Assembly (NCBI RefSeq): GCF_032884065.1
Contig: NC_088868.1
Location: 4,245,720-4,309,719 of the forward strand
From: Artemia franciscana
Taxonomy: Eukaryota > Arthropoda > Branchiopoda > Anostraca > Artemiidae
DNA length: 64,000 nucleotides
Direction of reading: 5' to 3'
The notes beneath the pieces are model-generated. The model saw nothing but the letters and a program-made list of their open reading frames with translations. It had not been told where the DNA came from and made no database searches. The position numbers and the translations under genes were made by a program. This document shows, one piece after another, positions 4,553-45,360 of this stretch (position 1 is its first letter; every line of letters begins with the position of its first letter).

Positions 4553-5518
4553 CTAAAACACCGGTTTCTCACCGATATGAGCCCTTTGATGCCTGTTCAA
4601 AGAGCCCCGTCCAGAAAAGCATTTTTTACATACATCGCATTCAAACGGTTTCTCACCAGTATGAATTCTTTGATGTGCGTTCAAACTTGCAGGTTGAGAA
4701 AAAGTCTTGTCACACACATCACATTTAAACGGTTTCTCACCGGTGTGAATTCTTTTATGTGTGTTCAAACTTGCAGCGCAAGAAAACGTCTTGTCACATA
4801 CATCGCATTTAAACGGTTTCTCACCTGAATGTACTCTTTGGTGTGTATTCAAACTTGCATGTTGAGAAAAAGTCTTGTCACATAAGTCGCACTTAAACGG
4901 TTTCTCACAGGTATGAATTCTTTGATGTGTTTTCAAATGCTGCTTTTGAGAAAATATTTTGTCACATACGTCACACTTAAACGGTTTATCACCAGTATGA
5001 ATTCTTTGATGTATCTTCAAACTTGAAGCGCGAGAAAACGTATTGTCACATACATCGCATTTAAACGGTTTCTCACCTGAATGCACTCTTTGGTGTCGGT
5101 TCAAATTTGAAGACTGAGCAAAGGTCTTGTAACACACATTACACTTAAATGGTTTCTCACAGGTATGAATTCTTTGATGCGTTTTCAAATGTGCAGGTTG
5201 AGAAAAGGTCTTGTCACATACATCGCATTTAAAAGGCTTTTCTCCTGAATGTACCCTTTGGTGCTGTTTCAACTGCTTCTTTTGAGAAAATATTTTGTAA
5301 CATATCTCACACTTAAATGATTTTTTCTCTTTATGAGTTCTTTGATATCTTTCCAATTTTCTATTCTTGTCACTTTGCATGCAACTTTTCAAACCAGTTT
5401 TCTGATTTCCTAAGCTTTTTCCTTCAGATTCCAATGCACATTCGTTTGAGAAACCACTCGTAGATGAATTCTTTGAAAAAAATAGTGAAGTAATTCCCTG
5501 CAAGTGCATTCCAGACAC
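4553..5518 (-). CDS. C2H2 zinc-finger protein with nine tandem fingers (block A copy)
   Basis: Probable nuclear DNA-binding protein of 321 residues. After a linker of about 69 residues rich in Ser, Lys and Glu come nine fingers of the form CxxC-x12-HxxxH, spaced 28 residues apart (about residues 70-314) and joined by TGEKPF-type linkers (variants SGEKPF, TCEKPF, TGDKPF). Residues at the DNA-contact positions differ between fingers. The tail ends soon after the last finger at GEKPVF. The Met at 5518 is the first in frame. A candidate 3' splice site (AG before GTCAC, exon from 5535), conserved in the B and D copies, suggests this is the last exon and that upstream exons may exist. All eighteen cysteines and eighteen histidines of the fingers appear intact, unlike the D copy. 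The DNA target is unknown. No KRAB, ZAD, BTB or other effector domain is visible. Confidence 0.85.
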   Translation of the reverse strand: MSGMHLQGITSLFFSKNSSTSGFSNECALESEGKSLGNQKTGLKSCMQSDKNRKLERYQRTHKEKKSFKCEICYKIFSQKKQLKQHQRVHSGEKPFKCDVCDKTFSQPAHLKTHQRIHTCEKPFKCNVCYKTFAQSSNLNRHQRVHSGEKPFKCDVCDNTFSRASSLKIHQRIHTGDKPFKCDVCDKIFSQKQHLKTHQRIHTCEKPFKCDLCDKTFSQHASLNTHQRVHSGEKPFKCDVCDKTFSCAASLNTHKRIHTGEKPFKCDVCDKTFSQPASLNAHQRIHTGEKPFECDVCKKCFSGRGSLNRHQRAHIGEKPVF

Positions 5519-5535
5519 GTGTGGTGAAAAGTGAC

Positions 5536-5890
5536 CTCAAATATAAAAAGTCTATAGAGTAAAAAAAAGGGAATAAAACAAAAATTAAAACAAAAAAAAC
5601 AAAAAAAAACACCTTTCAATATGTTTCAAAAGTCTACAGAGAAAACAAACCCAAATAAAACAAAATTTCATACCTCAACAAACCGAAAACAAAAAAATTA
5701 ATCTTTCAATATGTTTTAGAAGTCTACAGATAAAACAGTATATCTTTCGATATGTTTTGACAATTAATTTTATTTTCGATTCCTCTTCTCTCCTTCGTGG
5801 TGACACTAATATCAGCTTTTAAAATTAATTATTCTAATGCAAAGAAAAATGTTGATGACTGCTAAGAAAAAGCTTAAACTCAGTTCTTAA
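5536..5890. other. T-rich region upstream of zinc-finger gene with a LINE endonuclease remnant
   Basis: On the zinc-finger strand this is a T-rich stretch ending at the candidate splice acceptor. At its far end, on the plus strand (about 5838-5890), is the start of an endonuclease-like frame (LMTAKKKLKL) that is better preserved at 17203-17353 and on the minus strand at 41562-41747. In this copy it breaks off after about 15 codons. The head-to-head layout of zinc-finger gene and endonuclease fragment is shared by all three copies, so it belongs to the duplicated unit. Confidence 0.5.
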
Positions 5891-15903: not shown

Positions 15904-16886
15904 CTAAAACACTGGTTTCTCACCAATAAGAGCCCTTTGATGCCTGTTCAAATAGCCCCGTTCAGAAAAGCATTTTTTACATACATCGCATTCAAACGGT
16001 TTCTCACCTGAATGCGTTCTTTGGTGCCTGTCCAAATGTGATGAATAAGAAAAGGTTTTGTGACAAACATTACACATAAATGGTTTTTCACCCGTATGCA
16101 TTCCTTGGTGCGTTTTCAAATGTGCAGGTTGAGAAAAGGTCTTGTCACATACATCGCATTTAAACGGTTTCTCACCTGAATGCACTCTTTGGTGTTGGTT
16201 CAAATTTGAAGACTGAGCAAAGGTCTTGTTACAAACATTACACTTAAATGGTTTCTCACCAGTATGAATTCTTATATGTGTTTTCAAATTTGCAGCAAAA
16301 GAAAACTTATGGTCACATACATCGCATTTAAACAGTTTCTCACCCGAATGCACTCTTTGGTGCAGGTTCAAATTCGATGAATAAGAAAAGGTTTTGTTAC
16401 AAACTTTACACTTAAATGGTTTTTCACGCGTGTGCATTCTTTGATGTGTTTTCAAATTTGCAGGTTGAGAAAAGGTCTTGTCACATGCATCGCACTTAAA
16501 CGGTTTCTCACCGGTATGAACTCTTTGGTGCCTGTTCAAACTGCCCTGTTCAGAAAAGCGTTTTTTACATACATCGCATTTAAAAGGCCTTTCTCCTGAA
16601 TGTACCCTTTGATGCTGTTTCCAATGCAGCTTTTGAGAAAATTGTTTGTCACATATCTCACACTTAAATGATTTTTTCTCTTTATGAGTTCTTTGATATC
16701 TTTCCAATTTTCTATTCTTGTCACTTTGTATGCAACTTTTCAAACCAGTTTTCTGATTTCCTAAGCTTTTTCCTTCAGATTCCAATGCACATTCGTTTGA
16801 GAAACCACTCGTAGATGGATTCTTTGAAACAAATAGTGACATAATTCCCTGCAAGTGCGTTCCAGAAAAGTGTGGTGAAAAGTGAC
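15904..16886 (-). CDS. C2H2 zinc-finger protein with nine fingers (block B copy)
   Basis: Paralogue of the gene at 4553-5518, with the same leader (LQGI.SLF, then KSLGNQKTGLKSC) and nine fingers at 28-residue spacing. The finger order and contact residues differ: finger 2 is of the CDVCKKRFSEQG type, and fingers 4 and 8 have SYSS at the contact positions. The final histidine of finger 9 is replaced by leucine (HQRAL), so that finger is probably weak. I place the left limit of the exon at the conserved acceptor (TTTTAG before GTCAC, exon from 16886). The frame stays open to an ATG at 17025, but that extension translates a T-rich, intron-like stretch into an implausible hydrophobic leader. The Met used for the A copy is Thr here, so translation would need an upstream exon or a later Met. 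Confidence 0.75.
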
Positions 16887-17202
16887 CTAAAATATAAAAG
16901 TCTATAGAATAAAAAAAAACGAATAAAACAAAAAAATCAAAACAAAAAAACAAAACAAAAAAGGACCTTTCAATATGTCTCAAAAGTCTACAGAGAAAAC
17001 AAACCCAAATAAAACAAAATTTCATACCTCAATAAACCGAAAACAAAAAATTAATCTTTCAATATGTTTTAGTATTATAGAGATAAAACAGTATATCTTT
17101 CAATATCTTTTGACAATTGATTTTATTTTTCGATTCCTCTTCTCTCCCTCGTGGTGATACTAATATCAGCTTTTAAAATTAGCTATTTTAATGCAATGAA
17201 AA

Positions 17203-17353: not shown

Positions 17354-18699
17354 GACAACAAGAGCTAAGAGCTCATATGGCACTTGTGACGAGGCGAGAA
17401 GAGCTAAGAGCCAAGAGATCATATGGTATGAGCTCTAACAAAATTCTATGAATCAATAGATTGATTTAAAAAGGAAAATAAGAGGCTTAATTCCGGTCAA
17501 GATTTAAAATAAGAGCTCTGAGTCAGAAAGTCCTTCTAAATATCAAAATTCATTAAGATCCCATCACCCACTCGTAAGTTATAAATACCTAATTTTTTCA
17601 AATTTTTCCTCTCCCTTTTACCCTCCAGATGGTCAAATCTGGAAAACGACTTTATCAAGTCAAATTGTGCAGCTCCCTGACACGCCTACCAATATTCATC
17701 GCCCTAGCACGTCCAGAAGCACCAAACTCGCCAAATCACTGAACCCCTCCCCCCAACTCCCCCAAAGAGAGCGAATCCAGTACGATTCTGTCAATCACGT
17801 ATCAAGGACATTTGATTATTCTATCCACCAAGCTTCATCCAAATTCCTCCACTCCAAGTGTCTTTCCAAGATTTCCCCCTCCAACTCCCCCCAAAGTCAA
17901 AAGATCTGGTCGGGATTTGAAATAAGAGCTCTGAGACATGAATTCCTTCTAAAAATCAAATTTCATTACGATCCGATCATCTATTCGTAAGATATATATA
18001 CCCCAATTTTCATGTTTTCCAAGAATTCCGGTTTCCCCCTCCAACTCCCCCGAATGTCACAGGATCTGGTCGGAATTTGAAATTAGAACTTTAAAGCACA
18101 AGATCCTTCTAAATATCAAATTTCATTAAGATCTGGTCACCCTTTCGTAAGTTACAAATACCTCAATTTTCAAAATTAACCCCCCCCCAACTCCACCAAA
18201 GAGAGCAGATCCGGTCCAGTTATGCCAGTCACGTATCTTAGACAGGTTTCTATTCTTCCCATCCAGTTTCATCCTGATCTCACCGCTTTAAGTATTTTCT
18301 AAGATTTCCGGTCCCCCCAACTGCCCCCCCCCCCCAATTACGCTTGATCCGGTCGAGATTTAAAATAAGATATCTGAGTTACGAAGTCCTTCTAAATATG
18401 AAGTCTCATGAAGATCCGATCACTCCTTAGTAAGTTAAAAATACGTCATGTTTTCTTATTTTTCAGAATTACCCCCCCCCCCCTAATTGAGCGGATCTGT
18501 TCCAATTATGTAAATCACGTATGCAAGACTTCTGCTTATTTTTCCAACCAAGTTTCATCCCAATCCCTCCAATCTAAGCATTTTCCATCATTTCAGCCTC
18601 CCCCCCCCTAAAAACGAACCAAGAGCCTGTGTATGTACCTGCAGTCCTTTGAGTCTGCAAGGCTATCGAAATATTCAACACCAGACTTTAGAATAATAT

Positions 18700-19110
18700 T
18701 GATTACCTTACCCTTTTGAATTATCGACACCGTTCTTTATAGGTAGGAATTTTTTCATACACTTCAGTTACAATTTTATCCTTATCTTTTGACATAGATT
18801 CTTGAATGACTTCCATTTCTGCTCATCAAATTCATGGAAAACGTTTTAAATACGTATTTAAATTGCACATTTGAAAAGGCGGCCTTTGCAATAACTTGGG
18901 TCCGCGTTGTCTGTGCCCAAAGGACATGGGAACTAATTAAAAGTCAATAGCTAAGTTCATGAATGTGAAATCATCATTGATGACTGTCACAGTGTAAAAA
19001 TATTTTCCCTTTACAGTGCTGACTGCATAGATGACTGGAACAGTTACATCCGCAGGACTTTGCTTCTTAGGGAATTCCAATTTCGTCAGCAATAGTTACA
19101 GCTTAGGGGT
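18700..19110 (-). pseudogene. Degenerate coding-like segment inside the array interruption
   Basis: On the minus strand the stretch near 18915-19055 reads PADVTVPVIYAVSTVKGKYF and then INDDFTFMNLAIDF before a stop. Further along (18740-18840) are FHEFDEQKWKSFKNLC in one frame and KDKDKIVTEVYEKIPTYKER in another. The pieces look protein-like but need frame changes. I do not recognise the family. Confidence 0.2.
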
Positions 19111-19118
19111 ATAAGCCT

Positions 19119-19498
19119 AGAGAAGGAAACATGTTAAGAAAACATTTCATAATGCGCACAATAGCTATAGCAAACACCTTTTGCATGGATCCCCCCTATA
19201 CTTTACCGCCAAACCCCCTTCCCCTAAAAAGCAAATATATAGTCCATATATAAAACCAATGCATTCTGTCACCCATCACTTGTTTTCCGGTTCTTCTTTT
19301 AAACAGTTAATTCAATTAATAAGTACAAGGTATGAAACAAGAGAGACGCATTGGGGGAATAGAGGGGAAATATATAATTTCGACTGTATATTTACACATT
19401 AAGGGGGGGGGGGTAAAATATAGGGGGTTCCATGCAAAATATGTTTGCTACAATTGTTATGCATATTGTAAATTGTTTTCTTATCATGCTTCCTTCTC
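19119..19498. mobile_element. Foldback/MITE-like element, about 380 bases
   Basis: The ends are imperfect inverted repeats of about 95 bases: 19119-19212 and 19401-19498. Both begin AGAAGGAA and share TAAGAAAAC, TAGCAAACA and TTTGCATGGA, ending in C-rich/G-rich complements. The centre has no coding capacity. It lies within the insertion that splits the tandem array. A clear target-site duplication was not found. Confidence 0.6.
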
Positions 19499-20788
19499 AA
19501 ACATATTTCCTTCTTAACTCTTAAGTTAAAAATACCTCATTTTTCTAATCTTTCAGAATTAACCCTCGCCCCCACTCCCCCAAAGAGAGCGGATCCGTCC
19601 CGGTTATGTCAATCACGTATCTAGGACTTGTGCTTATTTTCCCCACCAACTTTCATCCCGATCCCTCCACTCTAAGCGTTTTCAAAATTTAAGGCCCCCC
19701 CAATGTCACCGGATCCAGTCAGGATTAAAAATAAGAGCTCTGAGACACGACATACTTCGAAACTTCAAATTTCATTAAGATCCGATCAATCCTTCGTAAG
19801 TTAAAAATACCTCATTTTTCTAATTTGTGCAGAATTAACCCTCCCAAACTCCCCCAAAGAAAACGGATCCGTCCCGGTTATGTCAATCACGTATCTAGGA
19901 TTTGTGCTTATTTTCCCCACCAACTTTCATCCCGATCCCTCCACTCTAAGCGTTTTCAAAATTTTTGGTCCCCCCCAATTCCCCCCAATGTCATCGGATC
20001 CAGTCAGGATTAACAATAAGAGCTCTGAGATACTATATACTTCCAAACTTCGAATTTCATTAAGATCCGATCACTCCTTCGTAAGTTACAAATACCTCAT
20101 TTTTCTATTTTTTCAGAATTAACCCTAGCCCACCCCCAAACTCCCCAAAACAGAGAAGATACGTTCCGGTTATGTCAATTATGTATCTAGGACTTGTGCT
20201 TATTTTTCCCACCAAGTTTCATCCCGATCCCTCCACTCTGAGCGTTTTCCAAGTTTTAGGTTTCCCCCTCCCAACTCCCCGCCCCCGTCACCAGATCCGG
20301 TTGGGATTTAAAATAAGAGCTCTAAGACACGATATCGATCTAAACGTCAAATTTCATTGAGATCCGATCACCCGTTCGTAAGTTGAAAATACCTCATTTT
20401 TTCTAATTTTTAAGAATTACTCCCCCCCCCCAACTACCCCAAAGAGAGCGAATCAGTTCCGATTATGTCAATCATGTATCTGGGACTTGTGCTTATTTTT
20501 CCCATCAAGTTTCATCCCGATCCCTCCACTCTAAGTATTTTCCGAGATTTTAGGTTCCCCCCCTCCAACTCCCCCCAATGTCATCAGATCCGGTCGGGAT
20601 TTAAAATAAGAGCTCTGAGACACAATATCATTCCAAACATCAAATTTCATTAAGATCCAACCACCCGCTCATAAGTTAAAAATCCTTCATTTTTTCGAAA
20701 ATAGCGACGAATACCACACTGCCTTTCCATAACAAACAAATACAACGTAGAGACATTAGGGAAAATTTCGAGACAGTGGAAATTATTT

Positions 20789-20833
20789 CTGTAGATATTT
20801 CGGCCCTATGTCCAAGGGCCGTCTTCAGCACAA
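20789..20833 (-). ncRNA. Hammerhead ribozyme of the Penelope-like element
   Basis: On the minus strand: stem I strand UUGUG (20833-20829), core CUGAAGA (20828-20822), stem II GGCCC/GGGCC (20820-20816 and 20806-20802) closing a nine-base loop, then GAAA (20801-20798), a minimal stem III of one A-U pair with a two-base loop, and the cleavage triplet AUC ending at 20794. The returning strand UACAG (20793-20789) pairs with UUGUG through five pairs including two G-U. This matches the type I hammerheads described in Penelope-like elements, whose stem III is extremely short. One base (C, 20821) between core and stem II is unpaired or forms a C-G pair at the expense of the conserved G. Activity is inferred from the fold. 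Confidence 0.75.
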
Positions 20834-20859
20834 TACAAGAATAAGAGAGAAACTATGTA

Positions 20860-20975
20860 TATATATAAAAGAACTATATATCAAATATAGTATATATTAT
20901 ATATACTATATATATATATATATAGTATAACTATATATATATCAAAAGAAAATATATATATCAAATTGTGAGGAT
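20860..20975. repeat. AT-rich microsatellite
   Basis: Nearly pure TA and TATC-type repeats lying between the ribozyme and the end of the Penelope frame. Confidence 0.85.
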
Positions 20976-21118
20976 TAAAACTGAATAATTAAAAACACTT
21001 TTTAAAACTTTTTTTTAAAAATAGCCCTAGCATCCTTACTTCATCGAAGTTCAACCAGGACTGGCGAAAAGAATGAAATGAGAATATAAGCTCATTCAAA
21101 CTGAAGAGAATAAAATGA

Positions 21119-22180
21119 TTAGATGCAATTTCTTAAAGCTAATCTTGCTTGTTTAGCAGCCTGTCTCAAAGGCCTTTTCGTAGTTGGTTCAGTACCATTA
21201 TAAATCGGTTTAGTAAAATATTTTGTTAGATCATTTTTAATTAAATTTGAGTATAAAGAATTTAGTGAGTATTCCCCCAAGTCCCTGTTCAAAGAAATAT
21301 TATTATTTATTTTGAGATTAATTTCGATTGATTCTCGAACCACCTGTTTTATTCCCAAATAATTACTAATGAGTGAAGAGTTTTCAAAAAGTATCATGTG
21401 GGACGGATTATTAAATATATGCCAACCTAAAGCAGAATCAAAGGAGTTGTTGGAACTATTTGAAATTAAGGCCTTGTCTATGTCATTTTTATGCTGTTGT
21501 AACCGTTTGTCTAGATTCTGATGGGTCCTGCCGACATAGTATTTTCCGCAATCACATGGTATTTGATAGACCCCTCTTTGGCGAGTAACTGGGGTCTTAT
21601 CTTTACCCGAATTTAAGAAATTGATGATTTCAAAATTATTAGTAAAAACTACGTACAGATTATTTTTTGTGCAAATATTTTTTAATTTTGTTGTGATCTT
21701 TGGGATATACGGAAGATAGACAATATTTGAGGGCTTATCAGTAGCCTCACATTGTGAAGTATCTTCTTCGATTTTACAAGAATGTCTTTTTATTCTACGA
21801 TTAATTATTTTATTGACAAAAGGAATGGGGTATCCATTACCAAAAAGAATACCTCTGATAAAGTTTATTTCTGCATTTATATATGAATTGGAGCAAATAT
21901 TCAGGGCACGATCAATGAGGCAAGTTACAACTGCTCTTTTAACTTGTGGGGGGTGATTTGAATTAAAGTGAAGATATCGATTGTTTTGTGTTGGCTTTCG
22001 ATATATAGTAAAATCCAGTTCATCAGCATTGCGAATAATTAATACATCTAAAAACGGAAGTTTATTTTCAATTTCAACTTCTAGGGTGAACTGCAAATTT
22101 CGGTCATAAGTGTTAAGATGATCTAAGAAGCCCCGAAGCTCAGCTTCCCCATAATTCCAAAGTGAAATTACGTCATCCAT
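21119..22180 (-). CDS. Penelope-like reverse transcriptase C-terminus plus GIY-YIG endonuclease (partial)
   Basis: 353 codons. It opens at the reverse transcriptase active site: upstream codons read GRY before MDDV, giving the YMDD box. The thumb follows, with KLPFLDV and the Penelope-typical TIYRKPTQNNRYLH. The linker phrase YLPYIP is at about residues 155-160. The GIY-YIG nuclease has GVYQIPC (203-209), cysteines at 209 and 211, YYVGRT (214-219) and an Arg-Leu-x-x-H segment (226-230). The endonuclease nicks target DNA to prime reverse transcription. The frame is open but truncated at its 5' end by rearrangement at about 22212, so the Met at 22180 is not a true start. The element cannot encode a full protein as assembled. 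Confidence 0.85.
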   Translation of the reverse strand: MDDVISLWNYGEAELRGFLDHLNTYDRNLQFTLEVEIENKLPFLDVLIIRNADELDFTIYRKPTQNNRYLHFNSNHPPQVKRAVVTCLIDRALNICSNSYINAEINFIRGILFGNGYPIPFVNKIINRRIKRHSCKIEEDTSQCEATDKPSNIVYLPYIPKITTKLKNICTKNNLYVVFTNNFEIINFLNSGKDKTPVTRQRGVYQIPCDCGKYYVGRTHQNLDKRLQQHKNDIDKALISNSSNNSFDSALGWHIFNNPSHMILFENSSLISNYLGIKQVVRESIEINLKINNNISLNRDLGEYSLNSLYSNLIKNDLTKYFTKPIYNGTEPTTKRPLRQAAKQARLALRNCI

Positions 22181-22299
22181 GTAACGACCCCAATAGACGT
22201 GTTTTGCTCCAATTCATATATAAATGCAGAAATAAACTTTATCAGAGATATTCTTTTTGGTAATGGATACCCCATTCCTTTTGTCAATGGACAATGGAC

Positions 22300-22598
22300 A
22301 ATTCCTTTTTGTCATTCCTTTTGTATGGGCAAATTGCGCTTCTTTCCGGGTATTTAAATGTAATTTATATCTTAAAGACTTGGGAATAAGGTTTTCATTT
22401 CTACAGGATTCTAAAAAATTTTGTTGATTGATAATATTAGCATGTTTTTTACCTAGACTAATAAAATAAAAGATATCATAGGTCAACTGCTCCCCATAAG
22501 CTAGACGAAAATAGCGACGAAGACCACACTGCCTTTCCATAACAAACAAATACAACGTAGAGACAATAGGGAAAATTTCAAGACAGTGGAAATTATTT
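22300..22598 (-). pseudogene. Penelope-like element N-terminal fragment
   Basis: Minus-strand reading includes MERQCGLRRYFRLAYGEQL, then FLESCRNENLIPKSLRYKL, which fits the N-terminal region of Penelope proteins preceding the reverse transcriptase. Before it the frame reads back into an inverted copy of its own sequence (22599-22650), and after it into an inverted copy of the thumb region (22214-22300, where the plus strand encodes NSYINAEINFI). The open frame through the N run is therefore an artefact. Confidence 0.6.
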
Positions 22599-22650
22599 CT
22601 TATTCCCAAGTCCTTAAGATATAAATTACATTTAAATACCCGGAAAGAAG

Positions 22651-22750
22651 NNNNNNNNNNNNNNNNNNNNNNNNNNNNNNNNNNNNNNNNNNNNNNNNNN
22701 NNNNNNNNNNNNNNNNNNNNNNNNNNNNNNNNNNNNNNNNNNNNNNNNNN
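22651..22750. other. Assembly gap, 100 N
   Basis: Exactly 100 undetermined bases, the usual placeholder for a gap of unknown length. Each side ends in sequence repeated in inverted form elsewhere in the window (22337-22389 on the left; 2447 downward on the right). Confidence 1.
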
Positions 22751-27462: not shown

Positions 27463-29133
27463 TCAGGGCAAGCCTTTGAGACTGGAGAAAATGAGAAAAC
27501 ATGACTTTTCGACATTTAAGCCAAGATAATTCACATCAAACCACTGGATAACTCTTTCAAAAAGGGCTATCATCCTTGAACGAAGATCAGACTCAGTTCT
27601 ACCAGTTGTGCCAAAATTACTGTCATCAGCAAAACCAATAAGTGTATCCGGTAAGGACAAACTCTTGTCACAGCTAGTGACGGATATTGGTTGACAAAGA
27701 CGACAGCAAATGGTAGGTTTTAAATTTTTAACCGTATTAATAAGGTCATTGACGTAGATTAAAAAGAGTATCGGCCCAATGACAGATCCTTGTGGAACAC
27801 CAGACTCTATTCCAGAAGGATTAGAAAAGTCCGGATGAACCGAGATGACTCGATCAGATAAATATGATAGAAACCATGAATAAGCATTCCCTCTTATACC
27901 AATATGGGACATTTTCAGAAGACGAATCTTGTGTGTTAATGAGTCAAACGCTTTTCGAACATCAAGAAAAAGAGCAGCAGGTATCAAACCAGAGTCAAGA
28001 GCTGAATTTAAATAATTCAAGAGAGTTGCACATGCATGCTCAGTTGAATGTTTGGCCCTAAAACCAAACTGAAAATCATGAAAAAAGTGTTTAGAATTAA
28101 GAAAATCAAGAAGTCGAGAAAGCATAGCTTTTTCAAAAATTTTATTAAACACTGATAAAAGAGATATGGGACGATAATTTGCAGGATCATTCCTTGATCC
28201 ACCTTTAAAAAGGATGATAACACGAGCACGCTTTAGAGCACTTGGGAAGACACCGTTTTCAAAAGAAAGATTGACAAGTCTCGTGAGGGCACACACAATG
28301 ACAGGAAGAATGAATTTGACAACCTTAGTCGGAATACGGTCTGGGCCAGATGATGAAGAACCCCTCAAACAATTGACAATTCTGGCTATTTCAGCTTCAT
28401 AGACAGGTTCCAATGCCATTGATTTAGGACAAGGTGGTCCTAGATAAGACCTAAAATCAGGTAGAGAAGAAGAAGGACTTACAGAAGAGGCTGTAGTTTT
28501 GCCGATATTAGCGAAATAGGAAGTAAACGCATCTTGAACTTTTAGCTCACCCTCTACATTTTCCCAGTCAATCACAACACTTGAAGGGACAGAAGGAGGC
28601 AGAAAAGATGGCCTAATAATAGAATTGATTACTTGCCATGTCTTCCTAATGTCTTTACCGCACGCAGAGAATTTTCTATGATAAAATAACGATTTAGCCC
28701 TTCGGCAAAGCGAATTGTAAATTCTTCTATAAGCTTTGAAAAGTTGAAGCCGAGAATCACGCGAAAATGGCTTAGAGCATCTGTAAGCCTTCCAAAGATA
28801 ATTTTTCTTCCTCCAACTTTTAAGGAGTCCAGGGGTCATCCAAGGATTCAAAGGGGTTGTTCTTTTCGATGCTGGATTTGACTGGGGTGCATTACATGTA
28901 TCAAAGATAACTTCTTTCAAAGAATCATAAAACGAATTAAACAAAGAATCTATGTCAGATCCATTTTCAGAAATACTCCACGAACGACCTGCAAACCGTG
29001 ACCTAAGAATATGCAAGCCCTGATCATTAAATTTTAAAGAGGAAAAACCAGCTTCTTGGCTCCTCCTTAGCAATGAATCGGAAAAATCATACATGGAAAA
29101 AACAGGAAAATGGTCTGAGATATCACTCATCAA
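27463..29133 (-). CDS. CR1/Jockey-like reverse transcriptase (interrupted ORF2)
   Basis: Open for 556 codons. It starts within the end of the endonuclease (SDHFPVF, the last catalytic His motif, about residues 6-12). The reverse transcriptase blocks follow: NYRPISLLSVFNKIFEK, FGFRAKHSTEHA, ALFLDVRKAFDSL (first catalytic Asp), GVPQGSVIGPILFLIYVND, and FADDSN at about 501-506 (the two active-site Asp). The frame stops shortly after, at GLP, while another frame (27315-27515) continues with DRYVRFLGILLDENLSFKHH, so a frameshift lies near 27480-27515. A second frameshift near 29140 separates it from the endonuclease. It would copy its own RNA at a nicked target. A few extra residues before FADD (CCRLCQPISVTS) look like a lineage-specific insertion. 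Confidence 0.85.
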   Translation of the reverse strand: MMSDISDHFPVFSMYDFSDSLLRRSQEAGFSSLKFNDQGLHILRSRFAGRSWSISENGSDIDSLFNSFYDSLKEVIFDTCNAPQSNPASKRTTPLNPWMTPGLLKSWRKKNYLWKAYRCSKPFSRDSRLQLFKAYRRIYNSLCRRAKSLFYHRKFSACGKDIRKTWQVINSIIRPSFLPPSVPSSVVIDWENVEGELKVQDAFTSYFANIGKTTASSVSPSSSLPDFRSYLGPPCPKSMALEPVYEAEIARIVNCLRGSSSSGPDRIPTKVVKFILPVIVCALTRLVNLSFENGVFPSALKRARVIILFKGGSRNDPANYRPISLLSVFNKIFEKAMLSRLLDFLNSKHFFHDFQFGFRAKHSTEHACATLLNYLNSALDSGLIPAALFLDVRKAFDSLTHKIRLLKMSHIGIRGNAYSWFLSYLSDRVISVHPDFSNPSGIESGVPQGSVIGPILFLIYVNDLINTVKNLKPTICCRLCQPISVTSCDKSLSLPDTLIGFADDSNFGTTGRTESDLRSRMIALFERVIQWFDVNYLGLNVEKSCFLIFSSLKGLP

Positions 29134-29142
29134 TATAGAATT

Positions 29143-29892
29143 TCACACCAACGTCAAAGATGAAAAAATATTATTAAGCAAAGAAGCGATAGTGTTAGTT
29201 ATGCGAGTTGGAATGCATGCAGAAGCCAGTGTTCCACAAGCGAGCATTGTCGAAAGAAAATCCAAGGACGAGGATGACCTCCGGTCAAACAAATTAAGGT
29301 TGAAGTCGCCCATAATTACAAGTTCACATGAATGAAGTTGGATTATTTCCAAAACCTCATCAAGAATCTGAAGGAAAGAGGGAACAGACCCACTAGGAGA
29401 CCGGTATATATTACCAACAATCAAAGCTTTAGCTTGGGTTTTAATCTCAATAAATATGGATGCAAAAATTCCTTCTTCATTTCTTGACAGGTCATGTCTA
29501 ACAGAGTACGGAAGACATTCCGAAACATAAAAAGCAAGGCCACCTTTAGCCATCCTACTTCGATTCAAATATTCCATCTTGTACCCAGGGAGATGCAATA
29601 GAGATTCATTTTTTGAATCAACGAAAGTCTCACAAAGACCAATGAAGTCAGGGTGGCCACTACGCACTATTTTTTTCAACTCATCAAACGAAGAGCAAAG
29701 ACCCTGAACATTAAGCTGAAGTATAGAGAATATACCATCTCGTTTGGATACTCGATCTAAATCAGATACGTATTTACTACTAACTGAAAAATGGGGATTT
29801 GATGGTGATTTGTTAGACTGACCTACTGAATTATTTATCAAACTAAGAACATCAATTGGGTTATTTTGAAGATGAAATAGTCGCTCACCCAA
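29143..29892 (-). CDS. APE-type endonuclease domain of the CR1-like element
   Basis: 249 codons. Recognisable elements are LQLNVQGL (Asn of the first strand), GLCETFV (catalytic Glu), GGLAFYV, VGNIYRSPSG and MGDFNLNLFD (Asp/Asn). The final SDHFPV motif is in the next frame at 29115, so one frameshift at about 29140 breaks the protein. It nicks DNA to prime target-primed reverse transcription. The N-terminal 50 or so residues precede the nuclease fold. Confidence 0.85.
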   Translation of the reverse strand: MGERLFHLQNNPIDVLSLINNSVGQSNKSPSNPHFSVSSKYVSDLDRVSKRDGIFSILQLNVQGLCSSFDELKKIVRSGHPDFIGLCETFVDSKNESLLHLPGYKMEYLNRSRMAKGGLAFYVSECLPYSVRHDLSRNEEGIFASIFIEIKTQAKALIVGNIYRSPSGSVPSFLQILDEVLEIIQLHSCELVIMGDFNLNLFDRRSSSSLDFLSTMLACGTLASACIPTRITNTIASLLNNIFSSLTLV

Positions 29893-30261
29893 GGAGGAGA
29901 TGTCACCCTAACTAGAGTCAGACAAATTAAAAAAAAAAAACATACAAACTATGATCCATCATGCGCCACCCACCACCCAGCTTGGCATCTTCATAACAAT
30001 GACATGTGGACAGCAACTAGGCAAACAGAACGATGAACTCATTTTTTGTGAAAAAAGAAACAGAAAAAATAAAGGCCAAAAACAGAAAACTTGAATAAGA
30101 AAAAAACTTGTATAAAAAATGAAAAACAACAAAAACATAACTAAATTTCCCAATCCAGGAGAAACATTTATATATCATAACTTACGAAAAAAAACAAAAC
30201 AAACAACAACAACTAACAAACATCAAACAAATCACTAAAAAAAATGAACAAATCACACATA

Positions 30262-41747: not shown

Positions 41748-42646
41748 TTTTCATTGCATTAGAATAATTAATTTTAAAAGCTGGTATTAGTGTCACCACG
41801 AGGGAGAGAAGAAGAATCGAAAATAAAATTAATTGTCAAAACATATCGAAAGATATACTGTTTTATCTGTAGACTTCTAAAACACATTGACAGATTAATT
41901 TTTTGTTTTCGGTTTATTGAAATATGAAATTTTGTTTTATTTGGGTTTGTTTTCTCTGTAGACTTTTGAAACATATTGAAAGGTGCTTTTTTTGTTTTGT
42001 TTTTTTTTGTATTAATTTTTGTTTTATTCTTTTTTTTCTACTCTATAGACTTTTATATTTTAGGTCACTTTTCACCACACGTGTCTGGAATGCACTTGCA
42101 GGGAATTACGTCACTATTTGTTTCAAAGAATCCATCTATGAGTGGTTTCTCAAACGCATGTACATTGAAATCTGAAGGAAAAAGCTTAGTAAATCAGAAA
42201 ACTGGTTTGAAAAGTTGCATGCAAAGTGACAAGAATAGAAAATTGGAAAGATATCAAAGAACTCATAAAGAGAAAAAATCATTTAAGCGTGAGAGTGACA
42301 AAATATTTTCTCAAAAGCAGCATTTGAAACAGCACCAAAGGGTACATTCAGGAGAAAAGCCTTTTAAATGCGATGTATGTAAAAAACGCTTTTCTGAACA
42401 GGGCTCTTTAAACAGGCACCAAAGAGTTCATACCGGTGAGAAACTGTTTAAATGCGATGTATGTGACAAGAGGTTTTCTCTTGCTGCAAATTTGAAAACT
42501 CATCAAAGAATTCATACCGGTGAGAAACCGTTTAAGTGCGACGTATGTGACAAGACTTTTTCTCAACCTGCATATTTGAACACACATCAAAGAATTCATA
42601 CTGGTGAGAAACTATTTAAATGTGGTGTAATAACCTGATCATAGAA

Positions 42647-44215
42647 GAAGCTTCTTCAAACATTGATAACGACAAGGACAAAAATCTCCTTTGGAATGTT
42701 CTCCGAGGCAATAGGCGGATTAACATGCCTGATACTAATTCCACACCGTCGCTAAAAGAGTGGGAAAATTATTTTTCTAAGTTGTCGACTTCGTACGATT
42801 CTAACAGTGTTGTGTTGCAATTAGATGAAAGGTTGAAGAATTTTTCAACTGATTACAGGATTTCTGAGGATATGTTACGTGGAGCAATCAAAACGTTAAA
42901 GGCGCAGTCGGCTAAGGATCATGATGGCTTATTTGCTAATCACCTCAAACTTGCTCCTTCTTCTTTTCTTATTACTCTACTGGCATTTTTCAACCTTTTA
43001 CTTACTACTGGTTTAGTACCATCGTCATTCTATATTGGCATAGTTACGCCTATTCCTAAGAGCGGGAAAAAAGACTTGTCATCTTGTAGCTCCTGGAGGC
43101 CAATTACTAGGGGTTCTATGATTGGGAAAGTGTTTGAGTTGTGTTTGAAGGATCTTCTTGAAATTCTTGACACTGGTTCTAATCAAGTTGGTTTCAAGAG
43201 AGGTTTGGGATGTGACCATGCCCATGCATCTTTCAGCAAAGTTATTGAAGAAGCGAGAATCTCTGGTCAACCGCTATACGCCCTCTTGATTGATATCAAA
43301 GGGGCCTTTGATAACATTTCTCATGCATCCGCTCTGCTCACTTTAATCCATGCTGGATTGCCCCTAGCTGTCATACGAGTCCTTCGCTCTTGGTATTCTG
43401 GTTTAAAGATCCGTATCTGTCCGAGTTCGTCTTCATCTCAGTCCAAATTAATTCAAGTGGGTAGAGGAATTAGACAAGGAGGAATTATTTCTCCTTATAT
43501 ATTCAATTCTTGTTTAGCTACTGCCCTTAATTCTCTTTCCTGCTCGTTTGTTTCATTATCTCGAAATCTGTCTTACATTGCATATGCTGATGACATTATC
43601 CTTCTAAGCTGGTCCAAGTCTAGTCTTGTTTCTAATTTTAATATTTTAATTAATTGTTTAAAAGGTTTGGGCCTTTCTATCAGTTTTGAAAAATGTCAAT
43701 TTTTTGTTGTAAATTGTTTAGAGGATAATGTCAGGGCGACTCTCGATTGCGGCAATGGTGTTATTTTTCAGTCGTCGCCAATAGTCACTTATTTGGGATT
43801 ACCTTATGCTGCTTCGAAAAGAGATTTCAAACCAGTCCTGGTTCAGCATGTTCAGATGAAACTACGCAAGGCATTTGGTCTTTTAATTCGTTTTCGGGGT
43901 CTTTACCGTCGGGACGTCCTTGGTCGTATGTATAGCGCTGTTGCTCTGCCTCACGTATTGTTCCCGTCCCTCCTCTTCCGAAATTTCAGACCTTCTGATC
44001 TTTCGCCCATTAAAGTTGCTTATTTTAAATTTTGTAAATTTTTACTTGGTTTCCCCCTTTCTTTTAGTAACACTGAGATTGTTTTAAAGCTTAATGTGAA
44101 GGATCCTGTAGTCTGTATAAAGAAAAAATATAAAACATTTGAAGATAGGGCGAAAATTAGCCTTTTAGGCCACAATTTATTTCCGTTTTTTAGTAACAGT
44201 TCTGGCTCTTCATGA
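42647..44215 (+). CDS. Non-LTR reverse transcriptase, 5'-truncated
   Basis: About 520 codons of intact frame. The open frame formally begins with an ATG at 42620 that belongs to the zinc-finger gene, so the true N-terminus is lost. Motifs: GIVTPIPKSGKKD, SWRPITRGS, GFKRGLGCDHA, YALLIDIKGAFDNISH (first catalytic Asp), GIRQGGIISPYIFN, and AYADDIILL (YADD at about residue 322 counted from 42620). The thumb (TYLGLPYA) and a basic tail follow, up to the stop. No stops or frameshifts interrupt it, so the insertion is comparatively young. The GIRQGG form sets it apart from the CR1-like elements here; I do not assign the clade. Confidence 0.85.
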   Translation, partial: EASSNIDNDKDKNLLWNVLRGNRRINMPDTNSTPSLKEWENYFSKLSTSYDSNSVVLQLDERLKNFSTDYRISEDMLRGAIKTLKAQSAKDHDGLFANHLKLAPSSFLITLLAFFNLLLTTGLVPSSFYIGIVTPIPKSGKKDLSSCSSWRPITRGSMIGKVFELCLKDLLEILDTGSNQVGFKRGLGCDHAHASFSKVIEEARISGQPLYALLIDIKGAFDNISHASALLTLIHAGLPLAVIRVLRSWYSGLKIRICPSSSSSQSKLIQVGRGIRQGGIISPYIFNSCLATALNSLSCSFVSLSRNLSYIAYADDIILLSWSKSSLVSNFNILINCLKGLGLSISFEKCQFFVVNCLEDNVRATLDCGNGVIFQSSPIVTYLGLPYAASKRDFKPVLVQHVQMKLRKAFGLLIRFRGLYRRDVLGRMYSAVALPHVLFPSLLFRNFRPSDLSPIKVAYFKFCKFLLGFPLSFSNTEIVLKLNVKDPVVCIKKKYKTFEDRAKISLLGHNLFPFFSNSSGSS

Positions 44216-44302: not shown

Positions 44303-45360
44303 TGTTCGATCAATATTTGATACGTTTTGATTGTAAGTGTTATCAGTTGTTTTTTCTTTATATTATATTGTAGCGTACTCCTCATTTTTTGAGGGAAATA
44401 AAGAAAATAAATAAATAAATAAACAGGGCTCTTTGAACAGGCACCAAAGAGTTCATACCGGTGAGCAACCGTTTAAATGCGATGTATGTGACCAGACATT
44501 TTCTCTTGCTGCAAATTTGAAAGCACATCAAAGAATTCATACTGGTGAGAAACCGTTTAAATGTGGTGTATGTGACAAGACCTTTTCTCAACCTGCAAAT
44601 TTGAAAACACATCAAGGAATGCATACGGGTGAGAAACTATTTAAGTGTAATGTTTGTAACATTACCTTTGCTCAGTCTTCTAATTTGAACCAACACCAAA
44701 GAGTGCATTCAGGTGAGAAACCGTTTAAATGCGATGTATGTGACAAGACGTTTTCTCGCGCTGCAATTTTGAACACACATCAAAGAATTCATACCGGTGA
44801 GAAACCGTTTAAATGTGGTGTATGTAAAAAAACGCTTTTCTGAACAGGGCTCTTTGAACAGGCACAAAAGAGTTCATACCGGTGAGAAACCGTTTAAATG
44901 CGATGTATGTGACCAGACGTTTTCTCTTGCTGCAAATTTGAAAACACATCAAAGAATTCATACCGGTGAGAAACCGTTTAAGTGCGACGTATGTAACAAG
45001 ACTTTTTCTCAACCTGCAAGTTTGAACACACATCAAAGAGTTCATACCGGTGAGAAACCGTTTAAATGCGATGTATGTGACAAGACGTTTTCTTGCGCTG
45101 CAAGTTTGAACACACATCAAAGAATTCATACTGGTGAGAAACCATTTAAAGGTGGTGTATGTGACAATACTTTTTCTCAACCTGCAAGTTTGAACGCACA
45201 TCAAAGAATTCATGCTGGTGAGAAACCTTTTGAATGCGATGTATGTAAAAAATGCTTTTCTGAACGGGGCTCTTTGAACCGGCATCAAAGGGCTCATATT
45301 GGTGAGAAACCAGTGTTTTATTTCAATACTCCCCTCAACATTCTTGATAGGCTCACCTGA

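Follow-up and report, generated by a model that had tools for sequence, protein, structure and literature searches.

A minimal hammerhead ribozyme predicted at the unit junctions of a high-copy Penelope-like retrotransposon of Artemia franciscana

The minus strand at positions 20789–20833 of the window, the whole 64,000-nt stretch of Artemia franciscana DNA analysed here, very probably encodes a hammerhead ribozyme, a self-cutting type of RNA, that belongs to a Penelope-like retrotransposon (PLE) of high copy number and is placed in the pseudo-LTR at the junction between element units. By its fold and its context, the motif is classified as a genuine but ordinary Penelope hammerhead, for which catalysis is predicted. 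The minimal Penelope hammerhead is a kind of ribozyme that is already known; such hammerheads are said to have been treated by Cervera and de la Pena in 2014 and by Lunse, Weinberg and Breaker in 2017. The role of hammerheads in Penelope elements is described as unknown in PMC7761336. A single genome that offers matches by the thousand, several families and insertion ends that can be read allows this role to be probed without bench work.

The ribozyme is assembled on the minus strand, by direct reading, from the stem I 5' strand UUGUG (20833–20829), the core CUGAAGA (20828–20822), an extra C between A9 and stem II (20821), the stem II 5' strand GGCCC (20820–20816), a nine-base stem II loop UUGGACAUA (20815–20807), the stem II 3' strand GGGCC (20806–20802), GAAA (20801–20798), the stem III loop UA (20797–20796), a U (20795), C17 (20794) and the stem I 3' strand UACAG (20793–20789). 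The triplet is AUC, and the predicted cut lies between 20794 and 20793. Measured against the core list used for hammerhead membership (PMC3088659), the type I core C3 U4 G5 A6 N7 G8 A9 ... G12 A13 A14, A15.1–U16.1 and H17 is complete at 20828–20794, and each part named in the preliminary description of this DNA (the core, the five-pair stem II, GAAA, the one-pair stem III, AUC and the five-pair stem I) was found in place. Stem I pairs as G-U, A-U, C-G, A-U and G-U, with the two G-U pairs noted in that description at pairs one and five. At two points the motif departs from the membership list: stem II does not abut A9, as one base intervenes at 20821, and stem III is a single pair with a two-base loop rather than a stable helix, a form that is usual in PLE hammerheads (PMC6155905). 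An outer extension of stem I (UUAUU/AAUAA) was rejected, as it is absent in 33 of 96 occurrences (overlapping loci counted) and worsens the computed hammerhead from –9.9 to –8.1 kcal/mol.

The motif is singular in the window. A generic descriptor (CUGANGA, 0–1 inserted base, stem II of at least 4 pairs, GAA, the stem III pair, UH and stem I of at least 4 pairs) matched the 64-kb window once, at 20833–20789 minus, and gave 0 matches in 60 simulated 64-kb sequences with the dinucleotide frequencies of the window. Likewise, the 34-nt ribozyme core occurs once in the window at up to 3 mismatches. A leave-out covariance model, built from ten sequences that belong to other families in this genome, with the window's family left out (alignment A3), matched 20836–20784 minus with 45.1 bits (E 6.9e-9), the next match reaching 10.7 bits (E 4.8). 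In ten further loci, the same-genome model found the ribozyme in L077, L046, L067, L009, L015 and L070 and matched weakly in L060 and L072, whereas L066 and L074 were unmatched at E up to 1. The Rfam models, by comparison, detected no hammerhead in the window at the gathering threshold, and none at E up to 10 in 20600–21050 or in 20 small related loci; RF00163 was silent both in the animal's own genome and in 14 control genomes, so that this search had no working positive control. The preliminary description had called for an Rfam hammerhead search and had held that the lack of a match in this or sister copies would speak against the ribozyme, which is literally the outcome obtained here and in the 20 related loci. 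We read the missing matches as a limit of the models' reach, because a model made from the genome's own families does match.

Since Rfam gave no match, relatives were sought inside the same genome, a 1.27-Gb assembly in which the window lies on contig C6. The pattern CTGANGA-D-N(9-28)-CGAAATATC, which excludes every family with C after the core, that of the window among them, matched 3878 times (UA loop) compared with 16 times for the reversed pattern. Together with the empty simulated windows and the E value of the leave-out model, these counts make it exceedingly improbable that hammerhead letters came together by chance in repetitive DNA; the silence of Rfam is the sole point in favour of chance.

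The first 100 of the 3878 matches, all on contig C1, comprise 55 distinct sequences, most of them from one large family. Among these 100 listed relatives, stem II begins after exactly one extra base in 81 and after three in 2, it follows CUGANGA directly in 0, and 17 lack a stem with three contiguous pairs. Twenty small regions were picked for variety, and stem I and its flanks were read there. The window's family has C as the extra base, the large family has U, and others, including L067, L072, L073 and L074, have A; outside the window's family U predominates. Hence the extra C, which had been described as unusual, is the rule in kind among the relatives examined, and the predicted hammerheads of this genome carry a consistent core variant with one base between A9 and stem II. 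This shared base may explain why standard models overlook the class.

Comparison of the relatives further supports the fold. In 36 distinct core-anchored hammerheads, which represent 103 occurrences from the sampled loci and the window, stem II pairs in 161 of 180 cells (shuffle maximum 134) and stem I in 127 of 180 (shuffle maximum 118; 2000 shuffles each), counts that are not probabilities because the 36 rows are related. Pair 3 of stem I alternates between C-G and G-C, and pair 4 between U-A and A-U. In alignment A3, 92% of cells pair, a level reached in 0 of 500 shuffles, and structures slid along the alignment do not exceed 46%. Both partners change in three pairs, a number that 8 of 500 shuffles equal or surpass; the number of further pair types is unremarkable (186 of 500 do so). 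The MAFFT alignments A1 and A2 misplaced some rows, and the counts rest on the core-anchored rows and on A3. As judged from these alignments, stems I and II covary, as expected of a hammerhead. Conservation of the core is not freely measurable, because the patterns that gathered the relatives fixed it.

The extra base also bears on whether the motif cuts. Opposite G12, a C pairs, a U wobbles and an A cannot pair. The minimum-free-energy fold of the window RNA is not the hammerhead but a structure with a pair between the extra C and G12 (–18.2 kcal/mol, z –2.85), computed as 8.3 kcal/mol better than the hammerhead pairing at –9.9 kcal/mol. Some core insertions in natural hammerheads reduce activity, and one position was considered tolerable (PMC3088659). 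These energies would suit an inactive hammerhead whose fold is inherited with the element and in which the extra base and the C–G12 pairing prevent cutting, as would the state of the window's copy, which is broken up and partly inverted. We nevertheless consider inactivity quite improbable. One extra base is common to families that have different stems and covarying pairs, and the A of L067, L072, L073 and L074 cannot form the inhibitory pair. In addition, 37 of 41 descriptor matches in L001–L028 (some loci overlap) share the same 50 nt, and of the remaining four one is from a different family, although this identity weighs little because the copies are recent. The non-hammerhead energy minimum is a caution rather than a refutation of the ribozyme, because energy rules ignore hammerhead tertiary contacts.

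The setting of the motif is that of a Penelope-like element, as had been proposed, and the attribution now draws on the endonuclease, a sister copy with both enzymatic domains, the pseudo-LTR position, the independent covariance model match and the covariation. In the window, the C-terminal part of a Penelope-like ORF with a GIY-YIG endonuclease occupies 21119–22213 of the minus strand (Pfam PF01541, E 2.2e-8); the sister copy L058 has a 718-aa frame with both RVT_1 (E 2.1e-11) and GIY-YIG (E 2.7e-7). A protein search of the genome scored 112 copies including that of the window, at 96–100% identity, among 16449 first-look candidates; the 111 further copies have 96–98% identity. With one ORF that joins reverse transcriptase (RT) to GIY-YIG, tandem or partial tandem copies with pseudo-LTRs, and inverted twins, the element is classified from its sequence as a high-copy endonuclease-bearing (EN+) Penelope-like retrotransposon.

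The ribozyme lies in the pseudo-LTR at the junction of 2,904-nt head-to-tail units. By BLAST to the 2,904-nt genomic unit, 20696–20793 minus is the start of the next unit (unit 1–98), which ends at the position of the long tail described below, and its ATG stands at 20730–20728 minus (unit position 64), so that the predicted cut is 63 nt upstream of it. A second element fragment at 22322–22600 minus covers unit 4–282 (pseudo-LTR and ORF start) and has no ribozyme. Two inverted fragments are on the plus strand: one at 22203–22288 (unit 1882–1967), and the other at 22599–22650 (unit 214–265), which is joined to the 5' end of the 22322–22600 fragment and adjoined by a 100-N gap at 22651–22750. 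Upstream of the ribozyme on the minus strand, an AT-rich, near-palindromic TATA repeat is found at 20854–20966; the other PLE subfamily lacks the UUUCUCUCUUAUUC stretch between its TATA-type repeat and the ribozyme.

Stem III, A15.1-UA-U16.1 (20795–20798 minus), reads AUAU and is self-complementary, and the 3878 pattern matches counted above have the same UA loop. A four-pair stem III could form between two such ribozymes of a single RNA; a palindromic stem III with dimer action has been proposed previously (PMC3088659, Figure S8 legend; PMC7761336). Loops that do not start with U gave 344 matches compared with 234 in the control, a count outside which UU, UC and UG fall; among the first 100 of these listed, the recognisable ones are, by eye, single changes of the large family plus one possible further family. 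Two monomers read from the array on contig C13 described below have the loop UU. The partial head-to-tail copy to which the preliminary description had pointed as a source of dimers is real, as 20696–20790 matches 22506–22600 at 97% identity, but it cannot serve as a dimer partner, because the fragment begins 3 nt downstream of the cut and contains no second ribozyme. Thus, no ribozyme dimer can form within the visible locus. By comparison, a full tandem array on contig C1238 has four ribozymes spaced 2,904 or 2,905 nt apart, and such arrays elsewhere would supply predicted dimer partners.

Insertion ends carry a record of the RNA that was copied: from the 5' ends one can tell whether the template was cut RNA, and from the 3' ends whether the next ribozyme had stayed uncut. 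The 3' ends were followed from the ORF end in 30 protein-selected loci, L029–L058, where L029 is the window's own copy and L030 and L040 are two ends of one locus. Twelve copies end at unit 56–65 and 14 at 92–108, the window's copy among the latter (+98); two run on into a further unit, two stop before the cut (L035 at –225 and L042 at –60), and none of the 30 ends at unit 1–55 past the cut. Ends beyond the predicted cut mean that the template RNA held an uncut or resealed 3'-side ribozyme in 26 of 30 copies. In a larger set selected by the letters just past the cut, 31 of 56 ends are short, 24 long and one other, with 8 more rows running on (overlapping loci included); the end at 76 of L057 in this set is an internal gap, and the protein-selected reading gives 99. 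The 12 short and 14 long ends form the tail pattern expected from two internal RT start sites, which, together with an optional tail, have been described in PLEs (PMC11167929; PMC3846280).

Head-to-head inverted insertions show the same two classes of end. Nine distinct ones (ten rows: L014, L018, L019/L034, L020, L022, L024, L033, L039 and L043) each have one short (56–65) and one long (92–108) end, and flank words of approximately 8–13 bp match by eye in these nine. Two more inverted pairs have ends at 96 and 60 (L030/L040) and at 61 and 99 (L056/L057). The occurrence of a short and a long tail in all of these inverted insertions suggests a different RT start site for each target strand.

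For the 5' ends, the 170 nt upstream were read at 60 of 100 listed ORF-start anchor places (186 in the genome), taken first in the list, leaving out arrays, previously sampled places and the list end, and counting two identical-flank pairs once each. In 45 of the 60 the copy continues into an upstream pseudo-LTR and gives no 5' end. The 163 nt read contain 13 independent 5' ends: five at –9 to +10 of the cut (–9, –5, –3, +6 and +9) and the others at –49, –38, –19, +19, +53, +57, +90 and +92. The +6 end, in L097, could be +3 against the letters of the other subfamily. The –9 to +10 stretch (20 of 163 nt) thus holds 5 of 13 ends versus 1.6 expected (binomial 0.015, for a stretch chosen after seeing the data). 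Adding the differently sampled ends of L015 (–7 or +1), L010 (+10) and the window (+4) gives 8 of 16 in this stretch. That 5' ends lie exactly at the cut was rejected, as they scatter from –9 to +10 and the sole end compatible with +1, in L015, is preceded by AAATATC, which may be element or flank. Because the ends cluster at the ribozyme without marking the exact cut, both cut templates and an RT stop at the stem II hairpin are possible.

An account in which the conserved hairpin mainly serves as a protein-binding or RT-stop structure in the element RNA, rather than as a ribozyme, draws on this imprecise clustering of 5' ends and on the 26 of 30 copies whose 3' ends imply a template that extended across a downstream ribozyme left uncut or resealed. 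A plain hairpin would have no use for the catalytic core, which appears alongside covarying stems in families whose stem sequences are unrelated, and we hold this account to be unlikely, with the reservation that the core was fixed by the search pattern and is not a free test.

From the fold, covariation, element type, tandem context, position and insertion ends described above, we infer the cutting and copying steps of the preferred reading, a hammerhead in the pseudo-LTR of the element. Transcripts of tandem copies would cut themselves between 20794 and 20793 at some junctions, and the cut would yield an RNA whose 5'-OH end precedes the ORF by 63 nt. Given a stem III of one pair, cutting probably depends either on a second ribozyme in cis, with AUAU joining the two, or on the element's protein. 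The protein would then bind the start of the next unit, and reverse transcription would begin inside the RNA, approximately 60 or 96 nt past the cut, for which the downstream ribozyme on the template must be uncut or resealed. The PAc ribozyme of a lizard cut only with protein. In vitro, RNA was still inserted when this ribozyme was mutated, and the cut site was neither the start nor the end of any read (PMC11167929), which counts against the ribozyme being needed.

In a more speculative view, which we regard as having a small chance of being correct, the hammerheads represent a distinct core variant, with a flexible base after A9 kept across families with unrelated stems and a palindromic AUAU stem III, that makes cutting conditional: in the monomer the extra base would pull G12 into stem II (off), and dimer formation or protein binding would free G12 (on). 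Conditional cutting fits 3' ends that mostly require an uncut or resealed downstream ribozyme as well as 5' ends that cluster around the upstream one.

Reviews describe minimal PLE hammerheads without helix III (PMC6155905, PMC7761336), and the Artemia motif shares with these (PMC6155905, PMC7761336, PMC7229834) the type I layout, the near-absent stem III, the pseudo-LTR location, the tandem copies and the suggested dimer action. In this comparison, made through reviews, the point of difference is the single unpaired base between A9 and stem II in most of the Artemia relatives examined. The Poseidon PAc element of Anolis carolinensis (PMC11167929) is likewise a PLE with RT and GIY-YIG, a ribozyme at the junction of pseudo-LTR and ORF, and two internal RT starts that give a tail. 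However, its ORF begins at stem II with the cut 26 bp inside the ORF, whereas the predicted Artemia cut precedes the ATG by 63 nt, and the Artemia RT starts, unlike those of PAc, lie around the ATG and approximately 30–45 nt into the ORF. Penelope elements of Adineta vaga (PMC3846280) have the same head-to-head inverted copies, with a 31-bp optional tail on one inverted pseudo-LTR and palindromic junctions; the word hammerhead occurs 0 times in that paper.

Two short arrays resemble the metazoan non-LTR retrozymes, which consist of monomers a few hundred bp long, arranged in tandem and bearing a type I hammerhead (PMC7229834). L139 (C13:7760400–7761150) has a period of approximately 317.5 bp with 15 anchor places listed, and L140 (C10:9584150–9584950) a period of 353 bp with 6. 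The monomers read have kept a ribozyme, the two RT start positions and the beginning of the ORF as far as unit ~217–221. Unlike retrozymes, these are internally deleted PLE units at two loci with a minimal ribozyme, and their interpretation as mobile retrozyme-like elements was rejected, as a search for their junctions matched nowhere but at the two arrays (13 and 6 matches, 19 in all). Nor is the ribozyme at 20789–20833 part of a short non-coding mobile repeat, as in a metazoan retrozyme; it sits in a PLE with coding sequence.

Several other repeats and frames accompany the element in the window. A diverged tandem repeat with units of approximately 293 bp, rich in C-runs on the plus strand, spans 17500–20695 and abuts the 3' end of the PLE insertion. 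Related ORFs with arrays of C2H2 zinc-finger-like repeats, recognised by eye, lie at 4553–5536 and 15904–17028 on the minus strand and at 41970–42638 and 44415–45360 on the plus strand, and frames that by eye resemble non-LTR retrotransposon proteins are present at 27463–29907 minus and 42620–44215 plus.
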